This document shows, in pieces, positions 5,430 to 26,424 of a DNA stretch of 64,000 nucleotides (the stretch's first letter is position 1; each line of letters opens with the position of its first letter). The notes under the pieces are model-generated. The model had not been told where the DNA came from. It ran no database searches and saw only the letters and a list, made by a program, of their open reading frames with translations. Source of the DNA: Paraglaciecola sp. MB-3u-78 (GTDB lineage: Bacteria; Pseudomonadota; Gammaproteobacteria; Enterobacterales; Alteromonadaceae); the NCBI RefSeq assembly GCF_002835935.1, contig NZ_PJCF01000010.1:1-64000 (forward strand), in the 5' to 3' direction. Both the position numbers and the translations under genes were made by a program.

Positions 5430-7253
5430 TTGGCATCGCAGTTTTATAACGACAATGCTAATGAATTAGCACAGCAATACCTATCAAAAACATTTGAAGA
5501 GGTACATCAAAGCTGGTCTCAATTTTTGCCCGAAATTATAGATAACCCCAATGCCCGAATCTTAGATTTAGGTGCTGGCGCGGGTCGCGATGCTAAATAT
5601 TTAGCGCAACTAGCCGAAAAAAAGCATGGTGCAAGCAATCAAATAAAGGTCTTTGCCGCAGAGCCCGCAAACCTACTGGCGCAATTAGGCGAATTACAAA
5701 CCCGTCACCTTAACGTTAAATGGCTTGAAGATTCACTACCCGCATTGAGTAAAGTGACCAAGCAAGAAATCAGTTTTGATTTAATACTACTCAGCGCCGT
5801 ATGGATGCATATTCCCCCCAGTGATCGCGCCCGTTCAATACGAAAATTGGCCAACCTACTTAAACCCGGCGGCAAACTGGTTATTTCATTACGCCATGGG
5901 CAAAATCAAGAAGAATTTACCCAGCGTAAAATGCACCTTGTTTGTGCTGACGAATTAAAACGGCTAGCCACTGATGTCGGGCTATTCACCAAACTAGAGA
6001 CCCCGAAAGAAGCAGACAAATTAGGTCGAAATCACGTCTCTTGGCAAACACTTGTGTTACAGCTGCCAGATGATGGCACGGGTGCTTTCCCGTTTATTCG
6101 CCATGTAGCAATCAATGATGGTAAAGCGGCAACCCACAAACTTGCCTTGTTAAGAGTGTTGCTACGCATTGCAGATGGTCACCCTGGGGCTGTATTGCGA
6201 CGAGAATCATTTGCTTTGGGTGGCAAAAATGGTGATCGCGTTATTTTACCCGTGGGATTAGTGGCGCTTTATTGGTGTCATCAATATAAAGATTTAATAG
6301 ATACGCATCAGTTATACCAAACACCCAATAAAAGCCCCAACATGGGCTTTATGAAGCCTAATGGCTGGCATAAGTTAACGCATCGCACAGCTTCAGATTA
6401 CCGTATTGGTAATTTATTCACAGGTGATGATGCGGTAGCACTACATAAAACCATTTCGGCAGCGGTTAGCAATATTAAAACCATGCCTTGCCGTTATATT
6501 ACCTTCCCTAATAGAAACGCTAATAGCAATGCAACCGTATTTGACGTTGCAAGCAGGTCAGTCAAAGCCAAAGACAGTATTTTCCTCGACTTACAAACCC
6601 TTGAACAATGGGGTGAATTCTCACTGCCTGAATCGACTTGGTTGGCGTTTAATCGTTATGCCTGTTGGATTGAACCAGTACTTATCAGTGAATGGGTAAA
6701 AACCATGTCGAGCTATTCTGGCAATGCTGAGTTTTCAACTCCTGAAAAGCAATTTCACCTATACCAAGCATTAAATTGGCTAGAGCCAAAACGAACCACA
6801 ACCGAAGTACGCCATCGGTTTGAACAGTTAAAGCAGCAATCTCCAGAATTAGCACAATGTGTGTGGACGGCCAAATCATTAGAGAAAAAATACGACATTG
6901 ATCACAGCATGCCATTCGCTCGTTGGCCTAATAACGATCTATGGAATTTATTACCAAGCGATAGCCAAATTAACAATCAAAAAAGTGATCGATTGCCAAC
7001 AGAGCACAAACTAAAAGCTTCGAAAGAGCGAATTCAACATTGGTGGCAAATGGCATGGTTAGATCAACATTTGCCTCCAGACCAAGCGCCTTCAACCTCT
7101 CTAATACGGGGCCAAAGCCAGCGCTTTTTCGCTGAAGCAAATATTGCATTACCGGGACTAAGTTCAGATAACACATCCATAGATGACTTGTTTGAAGCAT
7201 TGGTCATGCAACGTGGGCGCTTGAAAGAAATGCAGCAGTTGCGGGAATGGTGA
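5430..7253 (+). CDS. class I SAM methyltransferase fused to HNH nuclease domain
   Basis: A 607-residue two-domain protein. Residues ~30-200 form a class I methyltransferase fold, with the SAM-binding motif LDLGAGAGRD at 45-54 and the post-motif FDLILLSAVWMHIP at about 114. A long middle region (about 210-480) is not recognised. Near residues 488-525 lies an HNH-type signature: IDHSMPFARWPNNDLWN, then NLLP and an N-x2-K-S-D-R-LP tail. This suggests a DNA nuclease whose action could be governed by methylation, as in a one-polypeptide restriction-modification enzyme; that role is inference. The TTG start at 5430 has an ATTAGG ribosome site ending ten bases upstream and follows the HEPN remnant without a gap. 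An alternative is RNA modification or repair. Confidence 0.75.
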   Translation: MASQFYNDNANELAQQYLSKTFEEVHQSWSQFLPEIIDNPNARILDLGAGAGRDAKYLAQLAEKKHGASNQIKVFAAEPANLLAQLGELQTRHLNVKWLEDSLPALSKVTKQEISFDLILLSAVWMHIPPSDRARSIRKLANLLKPGGKLVISLRHGQNQEEFTQRKMHLVCADELKRLATDVGLFTKLETPKEADKLGRNHVSWQTLVLQLPDDGTGAFPFIRHVAINDGKAATHKLALLRVLLRIADGHPGAVLRRESFALGGKNGDRVILPVGLVALYWCHQYKDLIDTHQLYQTPNKSPNMGFMKPNGWHKLTHRTASDYRIGNLFTGDDAVALHKTISAAVSNIKTMPCRYITFPNRNANSNATVFDVASRSVKAKDSIFLDLQTLEQWGEFSLPESTWLAFNRYACWIEPVLISEWVKTMSSYSGNAEFSTPEKQFHLYQALNWLEPKRTTTEVRHRFEQLKQQSPELAQCVWTAKSLEKKYDIDHSMPFARWPNNDLWNLLPSDSQINNQKSDRLPTEHKLKASKERIQHWWQMAWLDQHLPPDQAPSTSLIRGQSQRFFAEANIALPGLSSDNTSIDDLFEALVMQRGRLKEMQQLREW

Positions 7254-7757
7254 GTGTTTAGTTTGGCTGTTACTCCATTTAAAGAGTGAAAACTTAATGG
7301 ATAAAATGAGAGTGCAGGTTAGGATTTACGTTAAGTCGACCCTGACACTAAATATTCTCAAAAATAATCGGTGAACATACATGCGAGGGTAGAGCAAAAG
7401 CATCGGCTGTGCCGCCAATGCATGAGCTGCGCTCACTGGGATTAAAAACGGGGATAAAATATTTACTTTGCTTTTTATGGTAAAAATAGTAGTCTCGAAT
7501 GTGGAAAAAAATCATTAAAAATAATAATTTAAGTTCGATGGATTTTAATAGGTATGACGAGTGATTTGCAGTTATTACACCTTGCGTTTAATCGGGTAAA
7601 GGAATTGTCGCTTAAATATGGTGATTCAATTCCTTATCTGATTTTATTTTTTCAACGAACCTGCCCCCATAGTCTCCTGACAATATTTATATCGGTCTCA
7701 TATGATTTATGGCAAAACTTTTCAAATAAAATTTAATCGTAATGGAGAAAGGTTAAG
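7254..7757. other. upstream region of the DISARM-like operon
   Basis: About 500 bases that must contain the promoter of the operon starting at 7758. A 60-codon frame (7554-7736, ATG start, product beginning MTSDLQLLHLAFNRVKEL) is present, but it has no recognisable family and a weak ribosome site. I see no clear operator or RNA structure. Confidence 0.4.
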
Positions 7758-8564
7758 TTGCAGTATAATCAACAAATTCGCTTAGTAAGAAATCTCGCGC
7801 AGGAAACGTTTTTGCAGTCACGGTTTGATTGTGTCTTTGTTATTTGTAAATCCCCCCAGTTACTTTCGTTGCTCGCTTGTTTTTTTGCTAAAAGGATCAT
7901 TAAAAAACCGTATGAACAGGGGACGTGTTTTTACACTCCAATAAATGACGATAAATATCGGAAGATATCTATCGTTGAACAAAAAGACTATGCGGGAAAT
8001 ATTGGTTACTCGTTCATAGAGAAAAAAGGCCGTGGTGATTTGTGTGAGAGCTGGAAACCTAGTGCATGGTTTGAACAACAGGCGATATTGGCGCTCGAAC
8101 AAGGCAATAAATCGTGGATTGAAGGTAACAATGTTGCAAGAGCTAACTTAAAACGACACCCAAAAGTCTTGTTTCCAACCGTCGTGTCGACTAAAGCAGG
8201 CTTTGAGGTCTGTTTAGATGTAGTTGTTAAGGAAGGGCGTTCGTTAGGAAAAATGCTTAATATCCATAGTTTTGAAGGGAATGCAGAGACAATAAAGTTT
8301 GTAACTAAAAGAAATGTCGAGCCAGAAGAACAAAACCTAATTTGGGTGAATGCGATACCCCGTACAATAAAATACAAAAAACAGATCGTCTTTATTTCTC
8401 AAAACTATAGTAAATTAGACCAACTAAAAGTCGATATCGATGACCTATTTCTAGAGTCTGAAACTCCTAAAGTTTTAACCTTGGCCGATTTAACCGGCGA
8501 TACCAAAGATCTAGTGGCTTCAACCAATGTTAATTTGCCTGTCTCTATTTGGAGAGCTTCATGA
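7758..8564 (+). CDS. unknown protein, first gene of DISARM-like operon
   Basis: A 268-residue protein of no family I recognise. It has a hydrophobic strand-like segment near residues 25-45 (VFVICKSPQLLSLLACFF) that looks like a buried beta-alpha unit rather than a membrane helix. The rest is mixed alpha/beta with no evident metal or nucleotide motif. The TTG start at 7758 is preceded by GGAGAAAGG. The stop overlaps the ATG of the next gene (ATGA at 8561-8564), a sign of translational coupling and shared function. With the next protein it sums to about 734 residues, similar to the size I recall for DISARM DrmE. A split DrmE is one possibility, but no motif proves it. Confidence 0.7.
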   Translation: MQYNQQIRLVRNLAQETFLQSRFDCVFVICKSPQLLSLLACFFAKRIIKKPYEQGTCFYTPINDDKYRKISIVEQKDYAGNIGYSFIEKKGRGDLCESWKPSAWFEQQAILALEQGNKSWIEGNNVARANLKRHPKVLFPTVVSTKAGFEVCLDVVVKEGRSLGKMLNIHSFEGNAETIKFVTKRNVEPEEQNLIWVNAIPRTIKYKKQIVFISQNYSKLDQLKVDIDDLFLESETPKVLTLADLTGDTKDLVASTNVNLPVSIWRAS

Positions 8565-9961
8565 GCGAAATATCTGAATTCAGTAATTTTTCAAGCTGTA
8601 GTATCGAGATAGTAAACTATAACTTTCCCCCTTTGGACGAATTTCTCTTATTATTAAATGAATTGAAAATTAGTAGTTTCAATGACGAATTGAAAACTTC
8701 TGTTTACACAAAGTTTAAAGAGATAACAAATCGTTTATTAAGTGGTAGAGCACTTGATGATGATGTAGCAGAAAAAACATTAGGATACTTCAAAAAATGC
8801 AATCAAGCTGGATTGCCAATCGAGTTTTTTCAATCTAGCCCTAAACGACTACTCAAAATAGTTAAAGATTATTTTGAAATAAAAGTGATTCTTCAAGCAG
8901 CTATTGAAGCCGTCATAAAGAAAAGCCCTCACGATTTCATATTCGTTTTTTGTTCAGATGATAAAGATTGGGATGAGATTTCTTCTGCTCTGTCATCTGA
9001 AAACGCCGAAAAAGTACGTCGTATTAATAGGCATACAATTCGACATAAATATATAAATCACTCGTTGTTGATTTTTGGTCCAGCATATTGGTTTTCTGAG
9101 TTTCTTTCATTCCCTTGTGCAGAACAAATATTTATTGTCCAGCCAAACGGTTTTTCGACGCATAAAGTTATTAAAAGGGATATTTTTAGTGGCCCCAATA
9201 ATGCAAACAACTTATGGACAGCTAATAAAACCAATATATCAATTACCAGCATGCAAATAGATGTTCATCCTCTGAAGGGTTATGAAAAAGATAGACCCAA
9301 AGAGATAGATGCAATTACTCAAACTACACTCTATTCGGATATTATAAGTGTACGTTCTTCAATTGACTCTTGCGAAGTTATAGATAAAGACGGATTTATT
9401 AAATACGTTCAGCTAAACAAAAATTATTTAACTATCTCCTTAGATGGACGCTTGGGGAGTTCAGTCTTTAGTGGTGAAGATACCTTCGAAGATATAGGTT
9501 ACATAGTGTCAGATATAGACTATGAGGACATGACACACGAAGATGTTGATAATGAACTTAAAAGCCAAATGGAAAGATGGAAAACCCCCCTTCGTGAATA
9601 TGGACTAAATCAAGGTTTAGTCGACCAATTAGGAACGTTAGGCTCAATTAAAGCCAATATTCAAAACGTTCGAAATTGGAGTAAGAAGAATTCAATAGCC
9701 CCATTGTATAGTCAAGACTTTATAGCTGTTCTCTCGTTCAGTGGCATCGGGAAAGAAGAGTTTTCATATTTTTTTAAACTCGCTAAAATTATTAGAAGCA
9801 AATCAATTTCGTTAGGGCACAAAAAATCTGACATCTCGAAAGAGATTGTAAAAAAAGAGATTTCGAGCCGTTTGAGTAATAATTTCTCACTTCCTTCGCT
9901 GCTTACTATTGGCAATATCAAAGTCCATATAATTGAGCCTCAAAGGAATATAAATGGCTAA
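8561..9961 (+). CDS. unknown protein, second gene of DISARM-like operon
   Basis: A 466-residue protein from the ATG at 8561, which overlaps the previous stop by four bases and has GGAGAG just upstream. A TTG twelve bases earlier is a less likely start. The middle part (about residues 120-175) alternates hydrophobic strands and loops (FIFVFCSDDKDWDEI, LLIFGPAYWFSEFL), suggestive of a degenerate Rossmann or P-loop-like fold, but no Walker motif is visible. A helical C-terminal part has W-x5-I-x-P near residues 370-380. The function is unknown. It overlaps the NERD-helicase gene by eight bases, so it is made together with it. A diverged DrmE or a targeting subunit is possible; neither is demonstrated. 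Confidence 0.7.
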   Translation: MSEISEFSNFSSCSIEIVNYNFPPLDEFLLLLNELKISSFNDELKTSVYTKFKEITNRLLSGRALDDDVAEKTLGYFKKCNQAGLPIEFFQSSPKRLLKIVKDYFEIKVILQAAIEAVIKKSPHDFIFVFCSDDKDWDEISSALSSENAEKVRRINRHTIRHKYINHSLLIFGPAYWFSEFLSFPCAEQIFIVQPNGFSTHKVIKRDIFSGPNNANNLWTANKTNISITSMQIDVHPLKGYEKDRPKEIDAITQTTLYSDIISVRSSIDSCEVIDKDGFIKYVQLNKNYLTISLDGRLGSSVFSGEDTFEDIGYIVSDIDYEDMTHEDVDNELKSQMERWKTPLREYGLNQGLVDQLGTLGSIKANIQNVRNWSKKNSIAPLYSQDFIAVLSFSGIGKEEFSYFFKLAKIIRSKSISLGHKKSDISKEIVKKEISSRLSNNFSLPSLLTIGNIKVHIIEPQRNING

Positions 9962-11669
9962 TTTGATTCCAAGAGTTATGTCGCCTAATAACCCAAGCGA
10001 TGGGGAAATACATCTTTTTAAACGTTTTGAACAAGATGAAAACACTTTAGATTGGCATGTACTACACTCGCTAAATATAGCTCATCATAAAACGCAGGTT
10101 ATGGGAGAAATTGATTTTTTAGTAATGATTCCGGATATATGTGTATTTGCTATCGAGGTTAAGGCTCATAGGTTCGTAAAGTTCGCTCACGGTATGTGGT
10201 ATTTGGGTAAAGACAGCAAAGGAGACTCTAAAAGCCCGTTTAGGCAAGTAAACGATGCAACCTTTAGCTTAATTGAGTATTTAAAAACTAAAAACAACGA
10301 CCTGTCACATTTGCCTATTTTCCCACTAGTGTTATTTACTCACACTGAGCTAAATTGTGAAAGTATTGAATGGCATCCTGCAGAAGTGTGCTGCGCGAAA
10401 GAGTATAGAAAGCAACCAATATCAACTTTACTACTGAAACGAGCTAAATTCTTCAAAAACAGGTTGAACAACAATACCTCAGTAAAATGGCAGTCAAATT
10501 TTGAAAGTAGACCTTCTGATAAAGATATTCACAATTTGATAGACGTTTTAAGGCCAGAGATTGAGCTTTTCGGAAATGAGATTGACACACGAGCTAGTGT
10601 AGCCATTGAAATTGAAGCTTTTACAAAAGAGCAGTTTGTTGCGTTAGATGCAATGGCTGATAACCCTCGTGTGCTCTTTAAGGGGCCTGCTGGCGTTGGC
10701 AAAACGGTCTTAGCCGCAGAGGTTGCAATGCGGGCGAAAAGCGAGGGGAAAAACGTTTTATTCCTATGTAAAAATACCATGTTAGCGAGATTTTTACGGG
10801 ACAAGTACGCTACAGAGAGCTTGACCATACTGACAATAACTGAGTTGTTGGAAAGCATTGTAAGCGCGGAATTTAAGCAATCAAAAAATCGCCAGGTGGA
10901 TAGTTATTGGAATTCAGAGTTACCTGAAGAGGCCTACGGGGTATTGTTAAATGACGAACAAACAGCTAAATCTTATGACTTTTTGGTCATAGATGAGGCT
11001 CAAGATATCTTGATAAATGAAAACTGGTTAGATTGCGTAGAGCTGCTAGTAGATAAAGGATTTTCATCGGGCAACTGGTATGTTTTTGGTGACTTCGACT
11101 TTCAAAATTTGTATTCATTATACTCGTCTACAAATATATTGGAGTCATTTCAACAAAGAACACATGGTTTCCCAACATTTAAACTTTCGATAAATTGTAG
11201 AAATATAAAAAAAGTATCTGATTTAAGCTTTTCTTTATGTTCACTAGAGTTACCGTACTCCAAGCATTTGCGGAATAATCAACCAATAGCGGAGTCGAAA
11301 TACTACTTTTATAAGTCAGAATCAGAGTTAAAAAAGAAACTCTTAGAGCAAATCAAATACTTAGTAAACCAAGGTTTTTCGCCTAGCGATATTGTTATTC
11401 TTTCTAAAGTAGCGGAAAGCAAGTCAACATGTTTTAAGTATGCATCTGAATTTGGAGCAACTAGATTTGATTTTTGTGAAAATTCTTTGCAGTACACTTC
11501 AATTCACAAATTTAAAGGTTTAGAAGCACCAATAATAATTCTAGTGGACTTTGATGAGATTGAGTCTGAACAATCAAAAAAATTACTCTATGCCGGCGCA
11601 AGCCGCGCAACTGAGAGTGTAATTTATTTGTTTGGATCTTTAGTTAGAGAGTATTTAATAAAAAACTAA
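9954..11669 (+). CDS. NERD nuclease domain fused to UvrD-like SF1 helicase
   Basis: A 571-residue protein. The N-terminal NERD domain, a PD-(D/E)XK nuclease relative, shows GEID at 51-54 and EVK at 68-70, the expected acidic/lysine catalytic set. The helicase part carries Walker A GPAGVGKT near 243-250, Walker B VIDEAQD near 345, a GDFDFQNLY motif III, an SINCRN motif IV, KFKGLE motif V and YAGASRATE motif VI near 546. Such proteins are expected to unwind and cut DNA. The ATG at 9954 has AAGGA six bases upstream and overlaps the previous gene. This is not a standard component of described DISARM loci (DrmA, B, C, D, E, MI, MII), which makes its placement here notable. Confidence 0.9.
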   Translation: MANLIPRVMSPNNPSDGEIHLFKRFEQDENTLDWHVLHSLNIAHHKTQVMGEIDFLVMIPDICVFAIEVKAHRFVKFAHGMWYLGKDSKGDSKSPFRQVNDATFSLIEYLKTKNNDLSHLPIFPLVLFTHTELNCESIEWHPAEVCCAKEYRKQPISTLLLKRAKFFKNRLNNNTSVKWQSNFESRPSDKDIHNLIDVLRPEIELFGNEIDTRASVAIEIEAFTKEQFVALDAMADNPRVLFKGPAGVGKTVLAAEVAMRAKSEGKNVLFLCKNTMLARFLRDKYATESLTILTITELLESIVSAEFKQSKNRQVDSYWNSELPEEAYGVLLNDEQTAKSYDFLVIDEAQDILINENWLDCVELLVDKGFSSGNWYVFGDFDFQNLYSLYSSTNILESFQQRTHGFPTFKLSINCRNIKKVSDLSFSLCSLELPYSKHLRNNQPIAESKYYFYKSESELKKKLLEQIKYLVNQGFSPSDIVILSKVAESKSTCFKYASEFGATRFDFCENSLQYTSIHKFKGLEAPIIILVDFDEIESEQSKKLLYAGASRATESVIYLFGSLVREYLIKN

Positions 11670-11680
11670 TAGGGAATTTT

Positions 11681-14600
11681 ATGAAGGGTTGGGATGTGCG
11701 TGACAATATAATTTTGAAAACTATAAGAGAGGAGCTAATAGGCCCCTGTGCATATGGAGACAAATTTAATTGGAAAAGCGGAACTATTAAAAAAAGCGAA
11801 GTTAACAGCCCCCTGACTTGCGACGACGACGGTGAGGAGATTCTTAAGGTCTATCCTCTCAAAAGATACGGTATGGGCGTTTTGTATCCTCTAGAGAGTA
11901 TAACTGAAATACCCGACGAATCTGACACTTCCGTGGATAGCAAGCTTCTTGAGCAGGAGCAAGAAGGTATTGAGGCTCCACAGTTATCTAAACAAGTAAA
12001 AACTAGTAACACTGATGATAGTAATGATTTCGATATCTCACTCACGAACGCCAGGCTTCCTTCAAGCATGGGCGTTTCCTTTATTTTTGATGATTCTATT
12101 TGCTCTAATTTTGAAATCAAAATTACAGGGGCTTTCTATTTACCATTTAATACTCAAGATGACGAAGGCCATCGATATAACTGGTGGAAAAGAGAACCTA
12201 TTTCACTTGAGATTTTCCTAGGTATTAAAAGTAGTATTCAAAGGATTAGTGAACCCCTAAAAAGTCATACAAATGATACTAGACTATCTAATTTTTACAT
12301 TGAAGGAGTTATCAGAAAGTATGGACGAAAAGCTGTAGCAACAATTGTGCTTGTTAACAGAACAGACCTTAGTCTTGCTGGTGGGAACACATATCAAGGA
12401 AAAAATCTCTACAGTTTGTTTCAAACTCAGCTCTTTGTGAGAACCATTAATAACGAAAAAGAGGTTATAGAAGCTGTATTGCCATACCCTTCGCAACCTA
12501 TCGACTCATTTACGGACTTAAGTAATGATGATCGTAGTAATGAGCTGGTTTATCAAAATGCTCAGTCATTTGGCAGAGGTCACGGTGTTGCGGTCGATTG
12601 GAATGCTAAACCTTACGTCAATCTTAATTCAGTTTCCCAAATTTTTACTGAAGTAATGCCAACCTTTGAGACTCCTAGCATTTCGGCAGAAGTAGAAAAT
12701 AAAAAAGAAAAATTAGAAATCTCAATGGAGGCGCTGTCAAAAATTGAGCCAGGTAGCGAAGGTGAAATTCAACTATTGAAGCTTATAAAATGGTACAACG
12801 GCTGGATAGATGAGCTAATTGTACAGAAAGAAAACATTAAGCACTCTGAAGAAAAAATTCAAAAAGAGTTGATGATTCAAGCTAATAAACATATAGAACG
12901 ATGCAAAAAAGCTAGCGACAGAATAACGGAAGGATTCAAACGAATCCAAAATGACCAGCGAGTTAAATTAGCCTTTCAGCTCACCAATCTTGCTATGTTA
13001 AATCAGCAGAAAAGAGCGCCCAAAACAATTCGTAAAGCCCATATAATTGATGACAAGATAATATTTAAAACACCTTTTAAGCCCAATATTTCGGCAAAAG
13101 GAGTGTGGAGACCTTTTCAAATAGGCTTTCTTCTTATGTGTTTAAGTGAAGCAGCCGAATCAGAACATATCGAAAGGGAGTTGGTCGATCTTATCTGGTT
13201 TCCGACTGGGGGTGGGAAGACGGAGGCATATTTAGGGCTAGCTGCTTTTACATTACTTTTCAATCGTATGGAATATAAAGACTACTCTTCTGGTGTGCAG
13301 GTGCTGATGAGGTACACACTTCGATTATTAACCGCTCAGCAACTTCAACGGGCTGCGACGCTAATTTGTTGCCTAGAGGTTATAAGACGAACTCATAATA
13401 TCCAAGGAGGTACTTTCAGCATAGGTCTTTGGGTTGGGAGTAAAAACACACCAAACAAAAGAAAAGACGCTTTAAGTAAATTTAGTAGAATGAAAAAAGC
13501 AATAAGGGAAGGTGGAAAGATAGAAAACCCATTTTTGCTTGATAGGTGTCCGTATTGTGGGTCACAAATGGGGGTTGCTGGTAAAGATGGTAAATTCTTG
13601 TCTGGCTACAAAAAAGAAAGGACTAGCGAGACTATAGCTTTCAAATGTGAAGATGTTAGTTGCGATTTTTCGAGTGGCATACCGGTTGTATTAATTGATG
13701 AAGATATATATGAACAAAAGCCCTCAATCGTAATCGGCACAGTTGATAAGTTTGCTATGCTAGCGTGGGAGCCAAAGATCCGAAATCTATTTGGTATAGA
13801 CTCAAATGGAAAGAGGGACCTACTGCCACCGCAATTAATCATTCAAGATGAACTTCACTTAATAACAGGTCCTTTAGGGACAATGGTTGGACACTATGAA
13901 CCATTGATTGAAGAGCTTTGTTCTTATAAGTCCAATAATGGAAATACTGTAAAACCTAAGATTGTGTGCGCTACAGCGACAACTAATGGTTATGAAGATC
14001 AGGTCAGGGCTATTTATGGTCGTGAGCATACTGAAATTTTTCCACCGCCTGGTTTATCTGCTGATGATTCTTTTTTCTCGAAATATGAAAAGGATGAAAA
14101 TGATAATCTCGCTCCTGGTCGAAAATATGTAGGAATATGCGCTCCAGGTTTAGGTTCTGTTCTAACAACACAAGTCCGCGCACATTCCGCGATGTTGTTT
14201 TCATCCAATAGAGTTGAATTTGACAAAAGAGACCCATGGGTCACCCTTTTGAGTTTTTACAACAGTATAAGGGAGTTAGGTGGCGCACTGACATTGTTTC
14301 AAGCAGATATCACATCGTACTTACTTGAGTTAAAAAGGCGCTATCCTAGGTTTTTACTTCCGAGGTATATCAATGGAGGAATGGAGCTAACAAGTCGCTT
14401 ACAGGATGACGAAATACCAGCTGCAATTACACTTCTAGAGCGTGGCTTAAAGCATGAGATCTTTAATGCTAATTTTTATCAGTCGCTTTTAATAGAACTC
14501 GAAGAATTTCTCCTAATTGAACCTAATTCAAAAATTGTTTCTCAACCATTAATTGATGAGTTAACGACTAACAAAACACTAATGTTGGAAGCATATGTGC

Positions 14601-15400
14601 TGGTTGATAACTTTAACCGACTGTGCAAAAAAGAGAAATGGGATATACCGAAAACGATATCCTCATTAACTAAAATATTGCAAGGTCGAGATGTTACTCC
14701 TTTTTGCTTAGCTTCAAGTATTATTGAAGTGGGGGTTGATATAGATAGGTTATCTTTGATGTCTATTGTCGGTCAACCAAAGACTACCGCTCAGTACATT
14801 CAAGTATCCGGTAGAGTTGGGCGACGGCCTTCAGAGCGTCCAGGATTGGTTGCTACTATTTACAATAATGGTAAACCACGTGACAAATCTCACTATGAAG
14901 ACTTTAGGTCTTATCATCAACGCCTTTATGCGCAAGTTGAGCCTTCTTCAGTAACACCCTATTCAAGACCAGCTATTGAAAGAGGTTTTGCTGCATTAAT
15001 GGTTGCTCATGCTAGACAGTTTTTACCACTAACCACGAAGCCAAAAGATGTTCCTAAAAAGCACTTTGAGGACTGGCTAGATAGATTGATAGATATTCGT
15101 TTTTGTTCGATGCAGAAAGACGAACTTCAGGATATTAAATCTTATTTCCATAATCGTTTTATAAAAAGTTGGACTTTGCGAGGGCAGACATCAGAAACGT
15201 GGGGGCATTTGAAACCTGAAACAGAGCCACATGAAACAGACTATATATGCCCTTTGGGTTCTTCAGGGCGAAAAACGCACCAAGTTGAATGCCCTACCAG
15301 TATGAGGAACGTTGATGGTGAATCGGTCGTATGGATAAGTCCCAGAGCATATGAAATACCTGAGGACGATGATGTTTGGGAGGAGTTTTTAGGCTTATGA
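11681..15400 (+). CDS. drmA: DrmA-type DISARM helicase
   Basis: A 1239-residue SF2-like helicase matching the size and layout of DISARM DrmA, the translocase core of an antiphage system that acts with DrmB. Walker A (FPTGGGKTEAY) is near residue 507. A zinc-binding insertion (CPYCG with later CEDVSC) is near 622-655. The DEAH-like box reads QDELH near 722. The helicase C-terminal part has SSIIEVGVDIDR and the arginine finger motif VSGRVGRRP near 1042-1050. A coiled-coil-like stretch rich in Glu and Lys lies at about 345-430. It starts eleven bases after the NERD-helicase gene with AGGGA upstream, and its stop overlaps the drmB ATG. Family assignment is confident; interaction with the extra subunits is inference. 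Confidence 0.9.
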   Translation: MKGWDVRDNIILKTIREELIGPCAYGDKFNWKSGTIKKSEVNSPLTCDDDGEEILKVYPLKRYGMGVLYPLESITEIPDESDTSVDSKLLEQEQEGIEAPQLSKQVKTSNTDDSNDFDISLTNARLPSSMGVSFIFDDSICSNFEIKITGAFYLPFNTQDDEGHRYNWWKREPISLEIFLGIKSSIQRISEPLKSHTNDTRLSNFYIEGVIRKYGRKAVATIVLVNRTDLSLAGGNTYQGKNLYSLFQTQLFVRTINNEKEVIEAVLPYPSQPIDSFTDLSNDDRSNELVYQNAQSFGRGHGVAVDWNAKPYVNLNSVSQIFTEVMPTFETPSISAEVENKKEKLEISMEALSKIEPGSEGEIQLLKLIKWYNGWIDELIVQKENIKHSEEKIQKELMIQANKHIERCKKASDRITEGFKRIQNDQRVKLAFQLTNLAMLNQQKRAPKTIRKAHIIDDKIIFKTPFKPNISAKGVWRPFQIGFLLMCLSEAAESEHIERELVDLIWFPTGGGKTEAYLGLAAFTLLFNRMEYKDYSSGVQVLMRYTLRLLTAQQLQRAATLICCLEVIRRTHNIQGGTFSIGLWVGSKNTPNKRKDALSKFSRMKKAIREGGKIENPFLLDRCPYCGSQMGVAGKDGKFLSGYKKERTSETIAFKCEDVSCDFSSGIPVVLIDEDIYEQKPSIVIGTVDKFAMLAWEPKIRNLFGIDSNGKRDLLPPQLIIQDELHLITGPLGTMVGHYEPLIEELCSYKSNNGNTVKPKIVCATATTNGYEDQVRAIYGREHTEIFPPPGLSADDSFFSKYEKDENDNLAPGRKYVGICAPGLGSVLTTQVRAHSAMLFSSNRVEFDKRDPWVTLLSFYNSIRELGGALTLFQADITSYLLELKRRYPRFLLPRYINGGMELTSRLQDDEIPAAITLLERGLKHEIFNANFYQSLLIELEEFLLIEPNSKIVSQPLIDELTTNKTLMLEAYVLVDNFNRLCKKEKWDIPKTISSLTKILQGRDVTPFCLASSIIEVGVDIDRLSLMSIVGQPKTTAQYIQVSGRVGRRPSERPGLVATIYNNGKPRDKSHYEDFRSYHQRLYAQVEPSSVTPYSRPAIERGFAALMVAHARQFLPLTTKPKDVPKKHFEDWLDRLIDIRFCSMQKDELQDIKSYFHNRFIKSWTLRGQTSETWGHLKPETEPHETDYICPLGSSGRKTHQVECPTSMRNVDGESVVWISPRAYEIPEDDDVWEEFLGL

Positions 15401-17256
15401 GAAATGACAGTAAAGTAAAAACTAGAAAGGGACAATTAATACATACTTTTGGTGTAGGTGCCATGCAGACTAATAAAGATGGAGTTGCGATGATTACTTG
15501 CGGCTTAGATCATTGGTTTGAGGCGGAAAGTATTCCACCGATGCTGGACAAAAGTAGTATTCAAAAATTTGAACGTGTTGATGAAAGGTTACAGAAGAAG
15601 CTCGGTGTAAAGTCGTTTCGCCTCCCTCCTGACTTCAAAATCGTAGAAGATGGTATAGTAAAGAGAGTACCGATACCGGCAAAAAAATTTCCTTTATGGC
15701 ATGTTTGTAGTAATTTAAGTTGTCAAATGCTGCTGCGTGGCCTGAAAGAGGAAAACGATGACAAGCCTAAAAAGTGCGAATGTGGTGCACCTGCATATCA
15801 ATCTAGGTTTGTGACGACATGTCCAGACGGGCATCTCGATGATTTTCCATGGTTTGCTTGGCTTAATAGCCAAACAGGGGGGGAGTGTATAGAAGGAAAA
15901 TGCAAACTCAAATTGGCTGGGACGGGCAGTTCCTCTGTTGCAGATATCAAGGTCAAATGCACAGTTTGTAATACGCGTGGGGTTTCCCTAAGAGGAATAT
16001 TTCAGAGCGAAAATGACCCAGAAACAGGTCATCTGGTCTCTACACTATCAAACGCTGGCATATCATGTAAGAGTAATTCACCATGGATTGCAGAAAAGAA
16101 AGAGAACAGCTGTAATAAGGCCATGGTAGCTGCTTTAAGGCAATCTACTAATGTCTATTTTTCAAAAACTGACTCTTCGATCTACTTGCCTCTTGATTCT
16201 CAGGCCTCCCTAGAAGATATTGCAGATTCCTTTGCAGAGTTAACCGATTTACAAAAAGCAAAAGTCAATGGCAACGATGATTTGAATTATAAAGTTGACT
16301 TATTGAGCATGATATTCAACGGTCAGTATACTGAAAACAAGATTAGACAATATCTGAAAAGTCTAGAGCAGAACGATGATGATAACGCGCAAAGTGAAGA
16401 CGAATATCGATTTCAGGAAAGAAAGTTCTTTTTGAAAAATGTGTCTGAAAGAACATTGTCTGTAAAGCCTCAAGATTTAAATATCTACAATGATTGGATC
16501 AGCGATTACTTTAAGTATATTGCTCTGGTAGATAAATTAACGGTCACCCAAGCAATGTATGGGTTTGACCGCTTAACGCCAAGCACCAGCAAATCAGTTG
16601 ATGATTATAAAAAGATGCTTTGGAAGGACGAAAGAAATATATCTGAATGGTTACCAGCTGCACAGAGTCATGGTGAAGGTATTTACATCGAGTTTGATGA
16701 TAAAAAGATTGAAGAGTGGTCTAAAGAATATGGAGCCTCATCTTCGTTTGCTAATTTAGTTAGGAACAAAGAGCAAAATACATATCTAGACAACATTGAA
16801 ACTCTGACGCCAGCCTTAATGCTAGTACATAGCTTTTCACATCTTCTTATGAACCGTTTGGTTTATGAGAGTGGTTATAGTTCTGCCGCTTTACGTGAAC
16901 GTTTATACGTATCTGATAAAGACGATAAAAAAATGTATGGCGTGTTGATTTATACTGCATCTGGCGACACCGAAGGTTCTTTAGGAGGCCTGGTTAGAAT
17001 AGGAAAATCAGGAAAGCTCGAACAAATCATTAAAAAAGCTGTTTTGGATGCACAATGGTGTAGCTCTGATCCAATCTGCTTCGAAAGTGGGGACAGTGGT
17101 GGGCAAGGTCCAAATGGGTTGAATTTAGCCGCATGCCATAACTGTTTGTTGCTGCCAGAGACATCATGTGAGCTATTCAATACCTTTTTAGATAGAGTTG
17201 CAGTTAATGGCGATATTTCTCCGTTGAGGGGTTTCTTTGACGGATTGAACAAGTAA
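15397..17256 (+). CDS. drmB: DrmB-type DUF1998 protein of DISARM
   Basis: A 619-residue protein with the features of DrmB, the DUF1998 partner of DrmA. An early Cys-rich zone has CSNLSC, CECG, TCPDGH and CKLK/CTVC pairs, probably zinc ribbons. The C-terminal DUF1998 part has HSFSHLLMNRLVYESGY, the GDTEGSLGGL segment and a terminal Cys cluster (ACHNCLLLPETSC). The ATG at 15397 overlaps the drmA stop (ATGA), typical for this gene pair; a TTG 21 bases earlier is also possible. Only six bases separate it from the STAS-GHKL gene. DrmA and DrmB are known to bind DNA together and to recognise ends or unmodified DNA in class 2 systems. The same role is assumed here. Confidence 0.9.
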   Translation: MRNDSKVKTRKGQLIHTFGVGAMQTNKDGVAMITCGLDHWFEAESIPPMLDKSSIQKFERVDERLQKKLGVKSFRLPPDFKIVEDGIVKRVPIPAKKFPLWHVCSNLSCQMLLRGLKEENDDKPKKCECGAPAYQSRFVTTCPDGHLDDFPWFAWLNSQTGGECIEGKCKLKLAGTGSSSVADIKVKCTVCNTRGVSLRGIFQSENDPETGHLVSTLSNAGISCKSNSPWIAEKKENSCNKAMVAALRQSTNVYFSKTDSSIYLPLDSQASLEDIADSFAELTDLQKAKVNGNDDLNYKVDLLSMIFNGQYTENKIRQYLKSLEQNDDDNAQSEDEYRFQERKFFLKNVSERTLSVKPQDLNIYNDWISDYFKYIALVDKLTVTQAMYGFDRLTPSTSKSVDDYKKMLWKDERNISEWLPAAQSHGEGIYIEFDDKKIEEWSKEYGASSSFANLVRNKEQNTYLDNIETLTPALMLVHSFSHLLMNRLVYESGYSSAALRERLYVSDKDDKKMYGVLIYTASGDTEGSLGGLVRIGKSGKLEQIIKKAVLDAQWCSSDPICFESGDSGGQGPNGLNLAACHNCLLLPETSCELFNTFLDRVAVNGDISPLRGFFDGLNK

Positions 17257-17262
17257 CGAATC

Positions 17263-18240
17263 ATGCACAAAGTTGTAGCCCCGAAAAAAGTTGATCTGAA
17301 CACAACGCAGATATTTATTGATGCGCTAGATCAATGCATCAAAAACCCTGTTGTGGCAGTTGATCTGAGGGGAATCGAATTTATTACTCCTACATCTATG
17401 CTTTTAATAGGCTCTAAGATTCGACGATGGCAGAAGTTCCGTCGCGAGCACGCCTTAAAAACTATGCTAGGCAGAGATGACAAAAACGATTCCCTAAAAT
17501 ATATGTCACACATGGGCTTTTTTGATTACATTAATGCGTCAAATTCTGAAGGAAAAAAAATGGGGGAGGCTCATGGGAGCAGCACATATATTCCTATTAT
17601 CGAGATCAAAAAGCCTCTATTTGTAAATCTACAAGACTGGTATGAAGAAATAATTTCCTCAGTGCGAGGGCTAGCAAACGTTCTAGCTGGAACATTCCAC
17701 GATACTGAAGAACATCGCTTTTTTATATATACCCTCAGAGAAATCGTAAGGAATGTTTTTGAGCATTCTAATGCTGAAAATTGCTTCATTTGCGGACAAC
17801 GATGGGGAAATGGTCGGGTTGAAATCGGAATTTTGGATGAAGGGATTGGAATTCAAGAGAGTCTCAGCAAATCATTTCGCGTAAAAGACGATAACCAAGC
17901 TATCCAAATGGCTATTAAACCCGGAGTATCCTCCACTAGTCATATTTCTACAGACTTAAATCAATACGATAACTCAGGGTATGGGTTATATGTTCTCACT
18001 GAAGTTGTAGCATCTTTTGGTAAGTTTTCTATTGGCAGTAACACTCGAAGGATGACAATAACTAAAAACAACCAGAAAATAGACACATCTAGTTTTGCAG
18101 GAACATATATTGGGATTGAAATGGATGCTGCACCCAAACAGTTCTCAACCCTGTTAAAGGATATAATTGACGCTGGTGAATCAGAGGCGGGGGCTACTAA
18201 AGTCGCAAGTTCAGCTTCAAAAATGTCAAAACTTGGCTAA
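17263..18240 (+). CDS. STAS-like domain fused to GHKL ATPase, in defence operon
   Basis: A 325-residue protein joining a STAS-like N-terminus (about 1-110, with VAVDLRGIEFITPTSMLLIG) to a GHKL/HATPase domain. The ATPase motifs are clear: N box E160-x3-N164 (REIVRNVFEHS), G1 box DEGIG at 192-196 and G2 box GYGL at 239-242. No phosphoacceptor His or transmembrane segment is visible, so it is not a standard sensor kinase. The two domains are those of partner-switching anti-sigma and antagonist pairs, fused in one chain. It is the last gene of the operon, six bases after drmB, and its stop overlaps that of the converging methyltransferase. An ATP-dependent switch controlling the complex is plausible; the MORC/MutL-like clamp role of other GHKL proteins is an alternative. 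Confidence 0.85.
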   Translation: MHKVVAPKKVDLNTTQIFIDALDQCIKNPVVAVDLRGIEFITPTSMLLIGSKIRRWQKFRREHALKTMLGRDDKNDSLKYMSHMGFFDYINASNSEGKKMGEAHGSSTYIPIIEIKKPLFVNLQDWYEEIISSVRGLANVLAGTFHDTEEHRFFIYTLREIVRNVFEHSNAENCFICGQRWGNGRVEIGILDEGIGIQESLSKSFRVKDDNQAIQMAIKPGVSSTSHISTDLNQYDNSGYGLYVLTEVVASFGKFSIGSNTRRMTITKNNQKIDTSSFAGTYIGIEMDAAPKQFSTLLKDIIDAGESEAGATKVASSASKMSKLG

Positions 18241-19841
18241 CGAATCAAGATTTCAGCAACTATTTTAGCAATTTGTCGAGCAAGTAACGGCGGCACTGCA
18301 TTCCCAACTTGGACATATTGTTGAGTCCTGTTTCCAACAAAGAAGTAATTGTCGGGGAAGGTTTGAATGCGGGCCGCTTCTCTTACTGTAAAGCTTCTGC
18401 ACTGGCTTGGGTCGTAATGGATGTAGTAATGACCATCTTTGGATATATGGCTTGTTACTGTGGTCGCTGGGGTGTGAGCTAGCTGTACTCTGAAACGATC
18501 TGCAAATTTCCCGCTGTTAAAGTTTTCATGGTTAGGTTTTAGTAAGTCAGGATAATCTTTAGATTTTGGAAATGGATTATCCCATTTATTTTTTTTGGCT
18601 ACTATTGCCCAAGTACTGCAATACATATATCTGTAGAGATCTTTTTCGATATGTCCGCGTGTTTCGTGATTGATCACATAGTTATCCAGCTTCGTATCTT
18701 TGTACCAATTCTCCAAAGTGGTATTATTTTCAATTGATAAGTTTTTAGTTTTCTTAATTCCAAAATTACTTCCTTGTTTTTGCTTAGGCACATTTATTTT
18801 ATCAATGACTTTTTCTATGTTCTGGGCTATTGATTCAAAACCTGACTTCTTCAGTGTTTTTGAAAGCATGGCTTTTGAACCTTTTAGTGTATCTACCCAG
18901 CGTTCATCACTGTTTACTCCTTTGGATAATCCACTTCTTAGCTTTGGTAAATCATTAAGAACGTCTTGTGTTGACGTTTGAGTAGCAGACGGGGATAGAA
19001 TCAAACTGTTGTCCCACTTATCGGCAATATCTTCACGTAAACCGAGCAAAATAACTCTGTGTCTTCGCTGAGGAATACAAAAATCCTCAGTTTTGATTAT
19101 ATAGTTTTTTGCGGCCGTAATTTCATCATGACCTGCTTTTACACCGTTTTCTGGAGATGGGCACACGAGGGATACAATTCGATAGTTGTGGCGAGTTCTT
19201 CCTTTTTGAACCTCAGTATTTGTAGCTTTACAGGGATTATGAAGATCTTTTCGCATGTTATCAAAAATAGACTCCCCATTAATTTTTGCAGATAGAAGGC
19301 CTTTGACGTTTTCCATTACAAATACCAGAGGTTGATACTTGGCAATTACCTTCAAGTACTCTAAATACAAAAAATTTCTTGAGTCATCTTCTGCTTTGTA
19401 ATCTTTTATTCCAAGGTTTCTGGCACGGCCAACTAGTGAATATGCCTGACAGGGCGGTCCACCAATAAGCATGCACTCATCAGCGCCGATGGAGTCTGCG
19501 ATAGCAATATCAATTTTATCGTTGTCTTCACCGAGGGTTAAACATCTGGCTTCATTTTGCGCGGCGCTAACTTGTTTTGCAAAACGTTTTATTTTGTAGA
19601 GTTGCTCTTCAGGGGTTTTACCTAACTCGCCTCGAAGAAATTGATAATACTCTTCGGGTGTATCTTCACCAAACTGTCGATAAAAAGCGCGAAGAGTTAA
19701 AGTTCGATGCGCACTTGCTTCTTTTTCAATAGAAATAGCTATTTTGAAAGGGTTAGAAGCATTTTCTTTATAAGCAGAAAATCCTTCCCCAAGACCACCG
19801 GGCCCAGCAAAGAGGTCAATTATTTTTATTGGTTTTGTCAT
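18237..19841 (-). CDS. drmMII: DNA (cytosine-5) methyltransferase, DrmMII-like
   Basis: A 534-residue 5-methylcytosine methyltransferase. Motif I DLFAGPGGLGEGF is at 9-21, motif IV GGPPCQ with catalytic Cys131, motif VI MENVKG near 182, motif VIII PQRRHRV, and the C-terminal motif X VGNAVPPLLARQ. It would mark self DNA so that the helicase complex ignores it; class 2 DISARM uses such an enzyme (DrmMII). It is on the opposite strand and converges on the operon with the two stop codons interlocked at 18237-18240. It thus has its own promoter at about 19850-19900. Separate transcription would let modification precede restriction. The target site cannot be read from the sequence. Confidence 0.9.
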   Translation of the reverse strand: MTKPIKIIDLFAGPGGLGEGFSAYKENASNPFKIAISIEKEASAHRTLTLRAFYRQFGEDTPEEYYQFLRGELGKTPEEQLYKIKRFAKQVSAAQNEARCLTLGEDNDKIDIAIADSIGADECMLIGGPPCQAYSLVGRARNLGIKDYKAEDDSRNFLYLEYLKVIAKYQPLVFVMENVKGLLSAKINGESIFDNMRKDLHNPCKATNTEVQKGRTRHNYRIVSLVCPSPENGVKAGHDEITAAKNYIIKTEDFCIPQRRHRVILLGLREDIADKWDNSLILSPSATQTSTQDVLNDLPKLRSGLSKGVNSDERWVDTLKGSKAMLSKTLKKSGFESIAQNIEKVIDKINVPKQKQGSNFGIKKTKNLSIENNTTLENWYKDTKLDNYVINHETRGHIEKDLYRYMYCSTWAIVAKKNKWDNPFPKSKDYPDLLKPNHENFNSGKFADRFRVQLAHTPATTVTSHISKDGHYYIHYDPSQCRSFTVREAARIQTFPDNYFFVGNRTQQYVQVGNAVPPLLARQIAKIVAEILIR

Positions 19842-20215: not shown

Positions 20216-20462
20216 TATTACATGGTTTTCAAAGGGGCATCATATCGATGTTTGCATTGATATATGTAATCAATTTGGTGAGTTTTTTCCATCTGAGTCA
20301 TGTGGACAAACTATTAAACAAGGTCAGATACGTGATTTATTCGCCAGAGGGCTATTAGCCAAAGAGCTAATCCAATCCTTTGGTATTAACTATTGGCGTT
20401 TCAGTGCGAGTGAGTCCGGTAAAAATCATCTAGAGGAGGCTAAAGATGACGGCTCAAAGTAA
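20100..20462 (+). CDS. small unknown frame ahead of the replication gene
   Basis: A 120-codon frame whose first half overlaps the IS4 fragment in another frame and is probably not native. The second half (from about 20238, FGEFFPSESCGQ, then DLFARGLLAKELIQSFGINYWRF) looks protein-like and overlaps the ATG of the replication gene by 17 bases, as small phage genes often do. No ATG, GTG or TTG start exists in the native part, which suggests the IS insertion removed its 5' end. Function unknown. Confidence 0.35.
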   Translation: MLMAIPLRLRVWGMLLRARPLKSIRSNEVKDCVPTTTPTITWFSKGHHIDVCIDICNQFGEFFPSESCGQTIKQGQIRDLFARGLLAKELIQSFGINYWRFSASESGKNHLEEAKDDGSK

Positions 20463-22213
20463 TGCAGAAAAGATAGAGTATAAGCTGAATAAGTTTTCTC
20501 ATGTTTATCAAAAGTTTCCATTTTTGAATCACGAGCGGTATGAATGTGCTGTTGATAGAGCAGATGTGAAATTTATCTTTGAGCAACTCAGTAAAGTCCC
20601 TGACGAGATGAAACAGTTAATCCTCGATAATGCATTTAAGTTAAAGGAAAGAAGAGAGCGTAATTTATATATTCTTCACCACACTGAAAAACTGGTTAGC
20701 TTCTTGCCCGAAAAACTTCGTCGTTCAATGGCGACAGATGATGAGGGGGTCCGAGTCATTGTACAAGACTGTGCTGATAGATGTCGTCGAATGGCTTTAC
20801 ACCATAACGTCAATGGACGGGTAAAACCGTCAACTGCAGTGCCTATTAATGAAGATTTCAGTTACGCAACAAAGCGCCTTGAACCCTTAACGGAAATTTG
20901 TGGGTCGAATTCAGGTGAAACCTTTCGAATACTCACAGAGTATGCCGCCTCATTTCGCATTGAAGCGATAAAGGTTACGGAAAAAGGCGCAACGGAATTA
21001 GGCGCAATAAAGCGCATGTGTGATAAAAATTGGTGGATGCGCCGATTACGAAAAATCTTCAATCAAGCTTATCAGCAAACCGCTATTGAATTAAACCTCG
21101 TGCATAAGTACAAACAAATTTATGCCAGCGATTTAACCGTAAAAAAGAGACAACAGCAACGCGCCTATAATGAACAAATGCTCAGTTCAATGAGTGTCAT
21201 TAATGATGCAGGTCAGCGTTTTTCATTAAAGGAATTATCCGATTTAAATGTCTCTAATCCAGCTGTTAGAAAAGCTGAACTCATGGTGCGCATGCGTGGC
21301 TTTGAGGAACTATCTAAAGAGCATGGTCATCAAGGGATATTTATTACCATTACTTGCCCATCAAAATATCACGCAGTCTATTCAAAATCTGGCCAACCTA
21401 ATCCAAAATATCAACATTTAACACCTTATCAGGCTAATCAGTATTTATGCGGTTTATGGTCACGTATACGCGCACAATGGAATAGAAAAGATATCAAACC
21501 TTATGGCTTTCGAGTATCAGAGCCGCAGCATGATGGAACACCTCACTGGCATATCCTGTTGTTTGTAGAGCCTCAGCATATTGATGAGCTTAAACAGGTG
21601 GTTAGTCATTATGCATTAGAGGAGGACGGAGACGAAAAATGTGCAGCTCAAAACCGTTGTGACTTTAAATTAATCGATCCAGAAAAAGGCAGTGCAACAG
21701 GTTACATAGCCAAGTACGTATCAAAAAACATTGATGGACTAGGTCTTGATGTGGGGGTTTATGGCGAAAATCCCATTACAGCAGCACAACGAGTAGACGC
21801 ATGGGCATCCTGTTGGTGTATTCGTCAATTTCAACAAATTGGTGGTGCTTCTGTTTCTGTGTGGCGTGAATTAAGACGATTAAATTGACGATTCATTTGA
21901 AAAGGCACGTATAGCAGCAGATTCAAGTAAATGGCATGACTATATTAATGCCATGGGTGGTGTATTTGCTAAACGTAAAGACCAACTGTTAAAGCTTGCT
22001 TATGATGCTAGCTTTAATAGTGACACCGGTGAATGTAAGCTCGGTTTTTATGATGGCAATATAATACAAACCGTAAAAGGGTTGATGTTCAAAGGGAAAA
22101 TGATCATCACCCGCTTTTACAGTTGGAGAATGGAAAAGGCAGGAACTGACGTTTTTAACTTGGAGTATTTCTTTACGTCCGCTTTGGGCATGCTGCTGCC
22201 CTCTCGCCATTGA
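20446..22213 (+). pseudogene. P2 gpA-like HUH replication endonuclease, frameshifted
   Basis: The first frame (20446-21888, 480 residues) encodes a phage GPA-family rolling-circle replication initiator that nicks the origin through a Tyr. Visible motifs are ITITCPSKYH, the metal-binding HWH (TPHWHILLF, near residue 367) and the catalytic-Tyr stretch YIAKYVSKNIDG near 420. After RRLN a TGA ends the frame. The family's continuation (DDSFEKARIAADSSKWHDY, then INAMGG) resumes one base further on at 21887 and runs to 22213. A single-base change therefore split the gene, and the distal part ends in unrelated residues. Its start ATG follows GAGG. It is probably a remnant of a P2-like prophage or satellite and likely inactive, although the HUH domain itself is intact. 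Confidence 0.8.
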
Positions 22214-22227
22214 CGCGTTTGTTAGAT

Positions 22228-25132: not shown

Positions 25133-25135
25133 TAT

Positions 25136-25970: not shown

Positions 25971-25979
25971 GAGTACATT

Positions 25980-26285: not shown

Positions 26286-26424
26286 GAAGCAATGAATGGC
26301 AATCTGACAACCTAGAGTTCTACATCTAGTACTGTCAATGTAACTAATTGTTTTATTTAAGAATACCGTGTTGTTTTTGGAGTTGATTCATATCTAGCGA
26401 GCAGGTTTGCTGTTCTGTTGCCGA

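Follow-up and report, generated by a model that had tools for sequence, protein, structure and literature searches.

A locus of the defence island system associated with restriction-modification (DISARM) that lacks drmC lies at positions 7,758 to 19,841 of a 64,000-nucleotide stretch of Paraglaciecola sp. MB-3u-78 DNA (contig NZ_PJCF01000010.1, positions 1 to 64,000), hereafter called the window. Its six-gene operon spans 7758-18240 and is faced at its end by a methyltransferase gene, and a protein joining a NERD domain to a superfamily 1 (SF1) helicase, hereafter NERD-SF1, is encoded immediately upstream of drmA. We consider it fairly probable that this is a DISARM of the class 2 side in which DrmC is absent, NERD-SF1 is the nuclease partner and the DrmE-like protein is perhaps split. 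The locus appears to be one member of a widespread group of DISARM loci in which NERD-SF1 is present and DrmC is not; among 37 distinct sampled DrmB loci, 17 carry NERD-SF1, 13 carry DrmC, none carries both and 7 carry neither. Phage defence by the locus, and the nuclease and kinase action of its products, are predicted from sequence.

The DISARM core

DrmA matches the PADLOC DrmA profile (E = 2.9e-201), aligns to the solved Serratia DrmA (7s9v_A, E = 4.3e-137, from residue 167 of that chain) and contains the motifs GGGKT at 510, DELH at 723 and QVSGRVGR at 1041. DrmB, the product of a separate gene adjoining drmA, matches the PADLOC profile at 5.3e-77, NCBIfam DrmB_fam at 401 bits against a cut-off of 240, and Pfam MZB. 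The methyltransferase matches PADLOC DrmMII (1.1e-95) and has PCQ at 130 and ENV at 177. On these profile matches the identities of DrmA, DrmB and DrmMII are beyond doubt, and the labels that an earlier note had given them from the letters alone stand, DrmB through NCBIfam and DrmA through 7s9v in addition to PADLOC. The DrmAB complex of Serratia is described as autoinhibited and rearranged by 5'-overhang DNA; its binding to 5'-tailed DNA has been shown, and unwinding is a hypothesis of the same paper (PMC9142583). Since DrmMII occurs together with a divergent DrmE C-terminal domain in gene 2, the locus is placed by its gene families on the class 2 side of DISARM. No open reading frame (ORF) of the window matched the class 1 markers DrmD and DrmMI above the thresholds of the hidden Markov models (HMMs). 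Neither DrmC nor any other phospholipase D (PLD) gene is present in the operon or adjoins it; the earlier note had likewise seen no DrmC beside drmB.

The NERD-SF1 protein and its distribution

The NERD nuclease domain belongs to the PD-(D/E)xK superfamily. The identity of the window protein as a NERD-SF1 helicase, proposed in the earlier note, is borne out by matches to Pfam NERD (3.8e-13) and UvrD_C_2 (6e-9), and its nearest PADLOC models are RTasNERD-Hel (2.2e-33) and C3a187 (NERD+UvrD; 2.4e-16). Among 27 NERD-SF1 proteins, all from DISARM loci, the NERD residues E18, D54, E68 and K70 are kept in all 26 sequences covering them, the 27th (from locus L062; loci are designated by L numbers) being truncated at the start. 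In the SF1 part, Walker A K250 and Walker B D347 are kept in 27/27, and the Walker B glutamate E348 in 26/27. Because the catalytic residues are kept, the gene adjoins drmAB and it never co-occurs with DrmC in the sampled loci, NERD-SF1 is probably the nuclease of this DISARM. A functional replacement of DrmC by NERD would fit the anatomy of the locus. NERD-SF1 is scarce outside DISARM loci. It is present as a single copy in the 6.48 Mb genome of the host (at 1e-5); of 148 genomes of the order, 11 have a match of any kind, in six cases a short partial one; and 9 of the 15 plasmid records with a NERD-SF1 match have a DrmB match within about 4 kb by coordinates, two near-duplicate pairs being included in the nine. 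No relative was confirmed when viral contigs were scanned for patterns from the GHKL and NERD alignments, an approach that reaches mainly close relatives.

The census was drawn from DrmB searches of 394, 398, 369 and 395 genomes in overlapping samples, each locus being counted once, and excludes the window, L002-L004, the plasmid loci and L133. The 37 loci include the too-short L025 and L065, the contig-end-cut L062, L096, L101, L102 and L104, and loci cut on one side such as L064, L092 and L099. Loci of this sample also supplied the sequences for the DrmC, DrmD, DrmMI and DrmE HMMs; among the DrmC seeds, L049 was verified by NCBIfam and PADLOC, and L054, L055 and L060 by similarity only. Plasmid records with a DrmB match numbered 55, of which 40 were listed and 13 examined. 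In the genus of the window, one of 21 other genomes has DrmB, with NERD-SF1 adjoining drmB.

The mutual exclusion of NERD-SF1 and DrmC gives a Fisher p of 2.2e-5, uncorrected for kinship. Class 1 markers (DrmD or DrmMI) are found in 13 loci, none of which has NERD; the other 24 comprise 17 with NERD, four with DrmC (L093 and three on cut contigs) and three with neither. The loci with neither gene over the whole census are L025, L047, L056, L057, L065, L099 and L102. NERD-SF1 lies upstream of drmA in 12 of its 17 loci and downstream of drmB in five, and the 89 further ORFs of these loci yielded no PLD or DrmC among the 25 families listed, out of 65 Pfam and 223 PADLOC families matched. In a FastTree phylogeny of DrmA and DrmB, rooted arbitrarily on L012, 14 class 1/DrmC loci group together (support 1.0) to the exclusion of every NERD locus, and a clade made up of the window, L002 and L003 (1.0) lies inside a wider group (0.945) that contains NERD loci with one-piece DrmE. 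L005, L010, L012 and L047, in which no NERD was found, fall among the NERD-containing clades. DrmA/DrmB loci with NERD-SF1 and without DrmC do recur, which supports this part of the reading in the earlier note. L131 has a UvrD-annotated helicase, DrmD- and DrmMI-like matches and no NERD.

A different arrangement is seen in one DrmAB clade (L046, L048, L050, L061, L063 and L064), where drmB is followed by a gene pair of 387-534 and then 468-563 amino acids; the first gene is SF1-like in five of the six loci, and a NERD-SF1 gene stands behind the pair in L050, L063 and L064. This pair possibly marks another subtype.

Gene order and relatives

The six coupled genes and the converging methyltransferase described in the earlier note are found as ORFs joined by short overlaps or gaps (Table 1). 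Genes 1 and 2 overlap by 16 bases, or by 4 with the ATG at 8561 as the start of gene 2; gene 2 and the NERD-SF1 gene overlap by 8; a gap of 11 separates the latter from drmA; drmA and drmB overlap by 25, or by 4 if the alternative drmB start ATG at 15397 is used; and a gap of 6 precedes the STAS-GHKL gene. The stop codons of the STAS-GHKL gene (TAA, 18238-18240) and of the methyltransferase gene (TAG, minus strand, 18239-18237) share bases and so interlock. Gene 1 has a ribosome-binding-site-like ggagaaagg ahead of its TTG start. The promoter-like pattern occurs at 3 sites in the stretch against 2.6 expected, and so the site before gene 1 is weak evidence.

Table 1. Genes of the DISARM locus and associated features in the window
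Feature	Position	Strand	Length and basis
Gene 1	7758..8564	+	268 amino acids; ORF list
Gene 2, DrmE-like	8549..9961	+	470 amino acids; ORF list
NERD-SF1/UvrD-type helicase fusion	9954..11669	+	571 amino acids; Pfam NERD, UvrD_C_2
DrmA, YprA-family superfamily 2 helicase	11681..15400	+	1239 amino acids; PADLOC DrmA
DrmB, DUF1998/MZB protein	15376..17256	+	626 amino acids; PADLOC, NCBIfam DrmB_fam, Pfam MZB
STAS-GHKL ATPase/kinase (predicted), CapK/VapK-like	17263..18240	+	325 amino acids; HATPase_c
DrmMII-type cytosine-5 DNA methyltransferase, convergent	18237..19841	-	534 amino acids; PADLOC DrmMII, Pfam DNA_methylase
S-adenosylmethionine (SAM) methyltransferase-HNH fusion, possible accessory	5430..7253	+	607 amino acids; Pfam Methyltransf_23, HNH_4
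Promoter-like site before gene 1, CTGACA-18-TATGAT	7677..7706	+	10/12 consensus

A genome scan gave three relatives. All seven genes, the convergent methyltransferase included, are present in Pseudoalteromonas sp. MSK9-3 (L003); the six operon genes, the last one cut by the contig end, in a Colwellia metagenome-assembled genome (MAG; L002); and gene 2, NERD-SF1, DrmA and DrmB up to the contig end in a Deltaproteobacteria MAG (L004). Since L003 and L002 keep the same order, the arrangement of the operon is not due to chance. A Rhodococcus opacus plasmid (L008) carries two hypothetical genes, NERD, DrmA and DrmB in this order and no GHKL gene, and the same order with a one-piece DrmE is found in L045, L052, L090 and L103. 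The identities of the window proteins to those of L003 and L002 are 61 and 63% for DrmA, 59 and 62% for DrmB, 55 and 58% for NERD-SF1, 55 and 55% for the GHKL protein and 49% for DrmMII (L003). Those of gene 1 (35 and 37%) and gene 2 (36 and 38%) are lower, so that genes 1 and 2 are the fastest-evolving of the locus.

Genes 1 and 2

The earlier note had left the first two genes as two unknowns. This no longer holds for gene 2, of which residues about 265-470 are, on profile comparison, a divergent DrmE C-terminal domain. A six-row alignment of the gene 2 family (window, L002, L003, L004, L005 and L008) matches a four-row DrmE family in hhalign with a probability of 97.8 and an E-value of 1.1e-12 over columns 264-486, and the NERD and DrmB families, used as controls, give probabilities of 0.26 and 0.15. 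A one-piece protein of L103 bridges the two families, matching NCBIfam DrmE_fam at 3.4e-53 and, in its C-terminal part, the gene 2 HMM at 9e-11. Pfam DrmE_C is the top match, always below its cut-off, of three gene 2 homologs (L004, 6.7e-4; L003, 0.036; L002, 0.12). The gene 2 protein of the window itself has no Pfam, PADLOC or NCBIfam match, with DrmE profiles searched to an E-value of 1. Single DrmE proteins match gene 2 unevenly (L045, probability 94; L052, probability 3), and the L045 and L052 proteins have no match in plasmids.

Gene 1 encodes a fast-evolving alpha/beta protein with homologs in L002 and L003; it has no Pfam match and one weak PADLOC match only (Csx1, 0.039). From gene order, genes 1 and 2 may be a split DrmE with gene 1 as the N-terminal half. 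A detectable DrmE N-terminus in gene 1 was rejected, since the hhalign score was 18.1 compared with a maximum of 17.7 among 10 column-shuffled controls. A split DrmE also appears to occur on a Priestia plasmid (L010), where a 278-amino-acid product matches the DrmE C-terminus at 2.6e-11, below the cut-off, and Pfam DrmE_C above it. An 801-amino-acid L. plantarum protein (L012) was discarded as a DrmE candidate, having no PADLOC or NCBIfam match. Fold searches with the AlphaFold2 models of genes 1 and 2, which are weak models, gave no match at E <= 0.001.

The STAS-GHKL gene

The protein encoded by the last gene of the operon matches HATPase_c at 8.8e-6 with 26.6 bits, barely above the cut-off of 26.4. 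Its STAS half has no Pfam match, and it is labelled STAS because of the look of its sequence and its resemblance to CapK and VapK as described in PMC13373217. CapK is described there as an HTH-STAS-GHKL protein and VapK as a STAS-GHKL protein, and each kinase has a STAS partner; activation of CapK by single-stranded DNA (ssDNA) requires W68, and F54 of VapK is called equivalent (PMC13373217). In the window protein and its relatives, the GHKL residues E160, N164, D192, G194, G196, G239 and G241 are invariant in 9/9 aligned sequences. The window, L002 and L003 copies all have W56, whose column in the nine-row alignment, read by eye, is aromatic in six sequences (W in three, F in two, Y in one) and S, A or L in three.

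STAS-GHKL stands beside DrmAB in the window, L002 and L003 only. Since none of the 37 sampled loci carries the gene, it is, by this distribution, a lineage-specific addition; GHKL as a general part of NERD-type DISARM was rejected on the same count, and its place in a recurrent type, as proposed in the earlier note, does not extend beyond the window and its two close relatives. One close homolog, G094 (6e-122), lies behind an ABC-ATPase-like gene in a 20 kb stretch devoid of DrmA and DrmB, and distant homologs occur on plasmids and in temperate phages. Relatives were located in L068 (5001-6190), L038 (7128-8972), L117 (10573-12889) and L070 (1914-3158). Their partners vary, with a downstream DUF4325 STAS-like gene in a Streptococcus phage, an upstream gene with a sub-cut-off HEPN match in Phaeobacter, an ABC-ATPase-like neighbour gene elsewhere and a fusion to DUF4325 in Nostoc. 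The STAS-GHKL kinase module looks portable. The PADLOC DrmA model PDLC02567 (1750 positions) matches the GHKL gene with its positions 112-271 (E = 7.7e-5) and DrmA with 636-1241. Because the two matches lie in different parts of the model, this suggests that a GHKL-DrmA fusion protein, itself not seen, exists somewhere.

Proposed mechanism and alternative explanations

In the mechanism that we propose, DrmMII would methylate host DNA, as its family suggests, and DrmAB would load where phage DNA is forked or exposes a 5' single strand, and unwind it. NERD-SF1 would then be recruited to the displaced strand, which it would unwind and cut, and the DrmE-like pair may sense or adapt to phage as an adaptor or sensor. 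In this lineage only, STAS-GHKL might act, by analogy with CapK and VapK, as a kinase that responds to ssDNA and, through phosphorylation of a partner, licenses the complex or boosts it. A bolder version, which we regard as doubtful, holds that nearly half of DISARM diversity uses NERD-SF1 as a built-in nuclease and that in this marine lineage an ssDNA-activated STAS-GHKL kinase, having lost its STAS substrate, licenses the complex by phosphorylating a DISARM subunit, giving a kinase-gated DISARM.

A number of observations weigh against the preferred reading or parts of it. The DrmB search profile (A6) was made from 12 DrmB sequences, several of which come from NERD loci; the sample contains no canonical class 2 loci of Bacillota with DrmC, and loci inside clades are not independent. 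NERD loci are spread over several DrmA+DrmB clades and do not form the phylogenetically distinct clade that the earlier note had named as support. NERD is not obligatory, because DrmC-less loci without it exist: in L047 and L130 no NERD domain was detected in the SF1 helicase, and in L005, L010 and L012 NERD was not found in the stretch read. Since DrmC is described as dispensable in the DISARM systems tested and as often missing (PMC9142583), DISARM may need no dedicated nuclease. As to the split DrmE, gene 1 has no profile match to DrmE in hhalign, and the models of genes 1 and 2 are poor, with predicted local distance difference test (pLDDT) scores of 60 and 56. A gene 2 alignment restricted to the window, L002 and L003 matches DrmE weakly (probability 6.3), its score of 32.6 exceeding all 20 column-shuffled controls (maximum 22.9), and against two DrmE rows only the probability is 0.8. 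DrmE_fam has no match in six gene 2-type proteins (L003, L004, L008, L042, L058 and L059). As to the kinase, no STAS/DUF4325 substrate gene was recognised in the operon, and a search for PF14213, other STAS families being outside it, found none in the genome of the window and matched 3 of 14 control genomes.

The locus could also be an ordinary class 2 DISARM whose nuclease acts in trans, from a PLD ORF at 22228-22710 or another host PLD, with NERD-SF1 only a processivity or repair helper. This ORF encodes a 160-amino-acid NgoFVII-like protein with PLDc_2 and a weak DrmC match (2.5e-7), which speaks for such a role; it lies 2.4 kb beyond the methyltransferase gene, behind a phage GPA gene and on the strand opposite the operon. 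In L003 the DrmC and PLD HMMs found no matching ORF, and the ORF at 22228-22710 was rejected as a displaced DrmC on this ground and on the weakness of its match. The absence of any locus with both NERD-SF1 and DrmC among the 37, as expected of alternatives, and the retention of the NERD residues wherever they can be read also tell against a nuclease in trans, which we judge improbable.

A second alternative is a defence island of independent modules, in which the DISARM core, a stand-alone NERD-helicase of the Nhi, C3a187 or RTasNERD-Hel kind and a VapK-like regulator share no mechanism. NERD-helicases do occur apart from DrmAB (in PADLOC models and in L044 and L118), as does STAS-GHKL apart from DISARM (L117, phages and plasmids). 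Against this stand the gene overlaps, the same order in Gammaproteobacteria, a Deltaproteobacteria MAG, Rhodococcus and Deinococcus, and the distribution of NERD, which flanks drmAB on one side or the other in 17 of the 37 loci and is absent from the class 1/DrmC clade; independence is decidedly improbable. That NERD-SF1 protects the host by processing self DNA or lesions made by DrmAB, rather than attacking phage, is highly improbable: RecB/UvrD-type SF1 helicase-nucleases are often repair enzymes, but positive evidence is lacking and the nearest PADLOC relatives, RTasNERD-Hel, NERD+UvrD and GajB, are defence proteins.

With NERD-SF1 as the probable nuclease partner of a DrmC-less DISARM, the locus bears on how DISARM destroys phage DNA, DrmC being dispensable and often missing (PMC9142583). 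A NERD-SF1 protein that recurs where DrmC is absent, with its nuclease residues kept, is a concrete nuclease candidate. Many DISARM loci may be overlooked or wrongly labelled by detectors that require DrmC, such as the PADLOC type II model described in PMC9252829. If STAS-GHKL works like CapK and VapK, ssDNA sensing by a kinase would be joined to a helicase-based restriction system.

Genomic setting

In L002, a homolog (601-2385) that shares 77% identity with the SAM methyltransferase-HNH fusion to the left of the operon lies 21 bp ahead of gene 1. Further homologs lie beside DrmAB in L133 (12868-14628, E = 8e-288), L091 (4759-6477) and L048 (10115-11874, two ORFs), accompanying DrmAB of different DrmAB clades. 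This recurrence may reflect an accessory role of the fusion in DISARM or a frequent partnership within islands.

To the right, the region 20446-28432 contains a phage GPA-type replication gene, the PLD gene, hipA paired with a helix-turn-helix (HTH) gene, a weakly HigB-like gene next to another HTH gene, and the gene of a tyrosine integrase. Because of these phage replication, toxin-antitoxin and integrase genes, the locus is likely island cargo. The G+C content falls from 0.45-0.50 over 1-4 kb to 0.35-0.42 over 4-30 kb; since much of the remaining window has a similar value (0.37-0.47), composition alone marks no island. No clear attachment repeats were seen at the island edges and no empty site was found, the same-genus loci L127-L129 sharing only HtpX of the left flank and one remote 27% match to a far window gene. 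An Ice-binding-like protein gene at 29819-31105 (Pfam Ice_binding, 5.6e-19) is consistent with a cold-water host.

Comparison with known systems

Class II DISARM consists of DrmA, DrmB, DrmC, DrmE and DrmMII, and the PADLOC type II definition requires DrmC (PMC9252829). The window resembles it in having DrmA, DrmB and DrmMII by profile and a DrmE C-terminal domain in gene 2, and differs from it in the absence of DrmC, in a strongly diverged and perhaps split DrmE, in the added NERD-SF1 and STAS-GHKL genes and in the convergent methyltransferase gene. With class I (DrmD, DrmMI, DrmA, DrmB and DrmC) it shares homologous DrmA and DrmB, the Serratia DrmA structure being alignable; however, DrmD, DrmMI and DrmC are absent, and the Serratia DrmA region before residue 167 is unmatched. 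No description of NERD joined to DISARM was found in searches of the open-access literature; to that extent a DrmC-less DISARM with NERD appears undescribed, as the earlier note had suggested. An RmuC-domain protein in some Pseudomonas DISARM-like loci is a different added nuclease-like gene (PMC10270631).

TALON is described as NERD-associated, with an ARMADA-like YprA protein and TPR-CSD and TBP genes, and as largely confined to Chloroflexota, and the same source states that DISARM typically includes the PLD protein DrmC (PMC12458937). The window operon likewise pairs a YprA-family helicase with a NERD-type nuclease, but its drmA and drmB are separate, unlike TALON YprA with a fused DUF1998, and its DrmA matches DISARM profiles. 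Membership in ARMADA or TALON was rejected, as TPR-CSD and TBP are absent from the Pfam matches of the operon and drmB is a separate gene. The RTasNERD-Hel, C3a187, Nhi and GajB helicases of PADLOC are the same kind of NERD-SF1 protein; the window gene differs in lying between a DrmE-like gene and drmA, with no reverse transcriptase or GajA among the operon matches.

The GHKL protein of the window is likened to CapK and VapK by their descriptions in PMC13373217, where a list of CapK-associated operons does not include DISARM. Unlike CapK and VapK, it has no recognised CapS/VapS-like STAS gene beside it and is encoded by the last gene of a DISARM operon; like them, it appears to combine a STAS-like half with GHKL, keeps the N-box asparagine and has an aromatic residue, W56, near the number of VapK F54.

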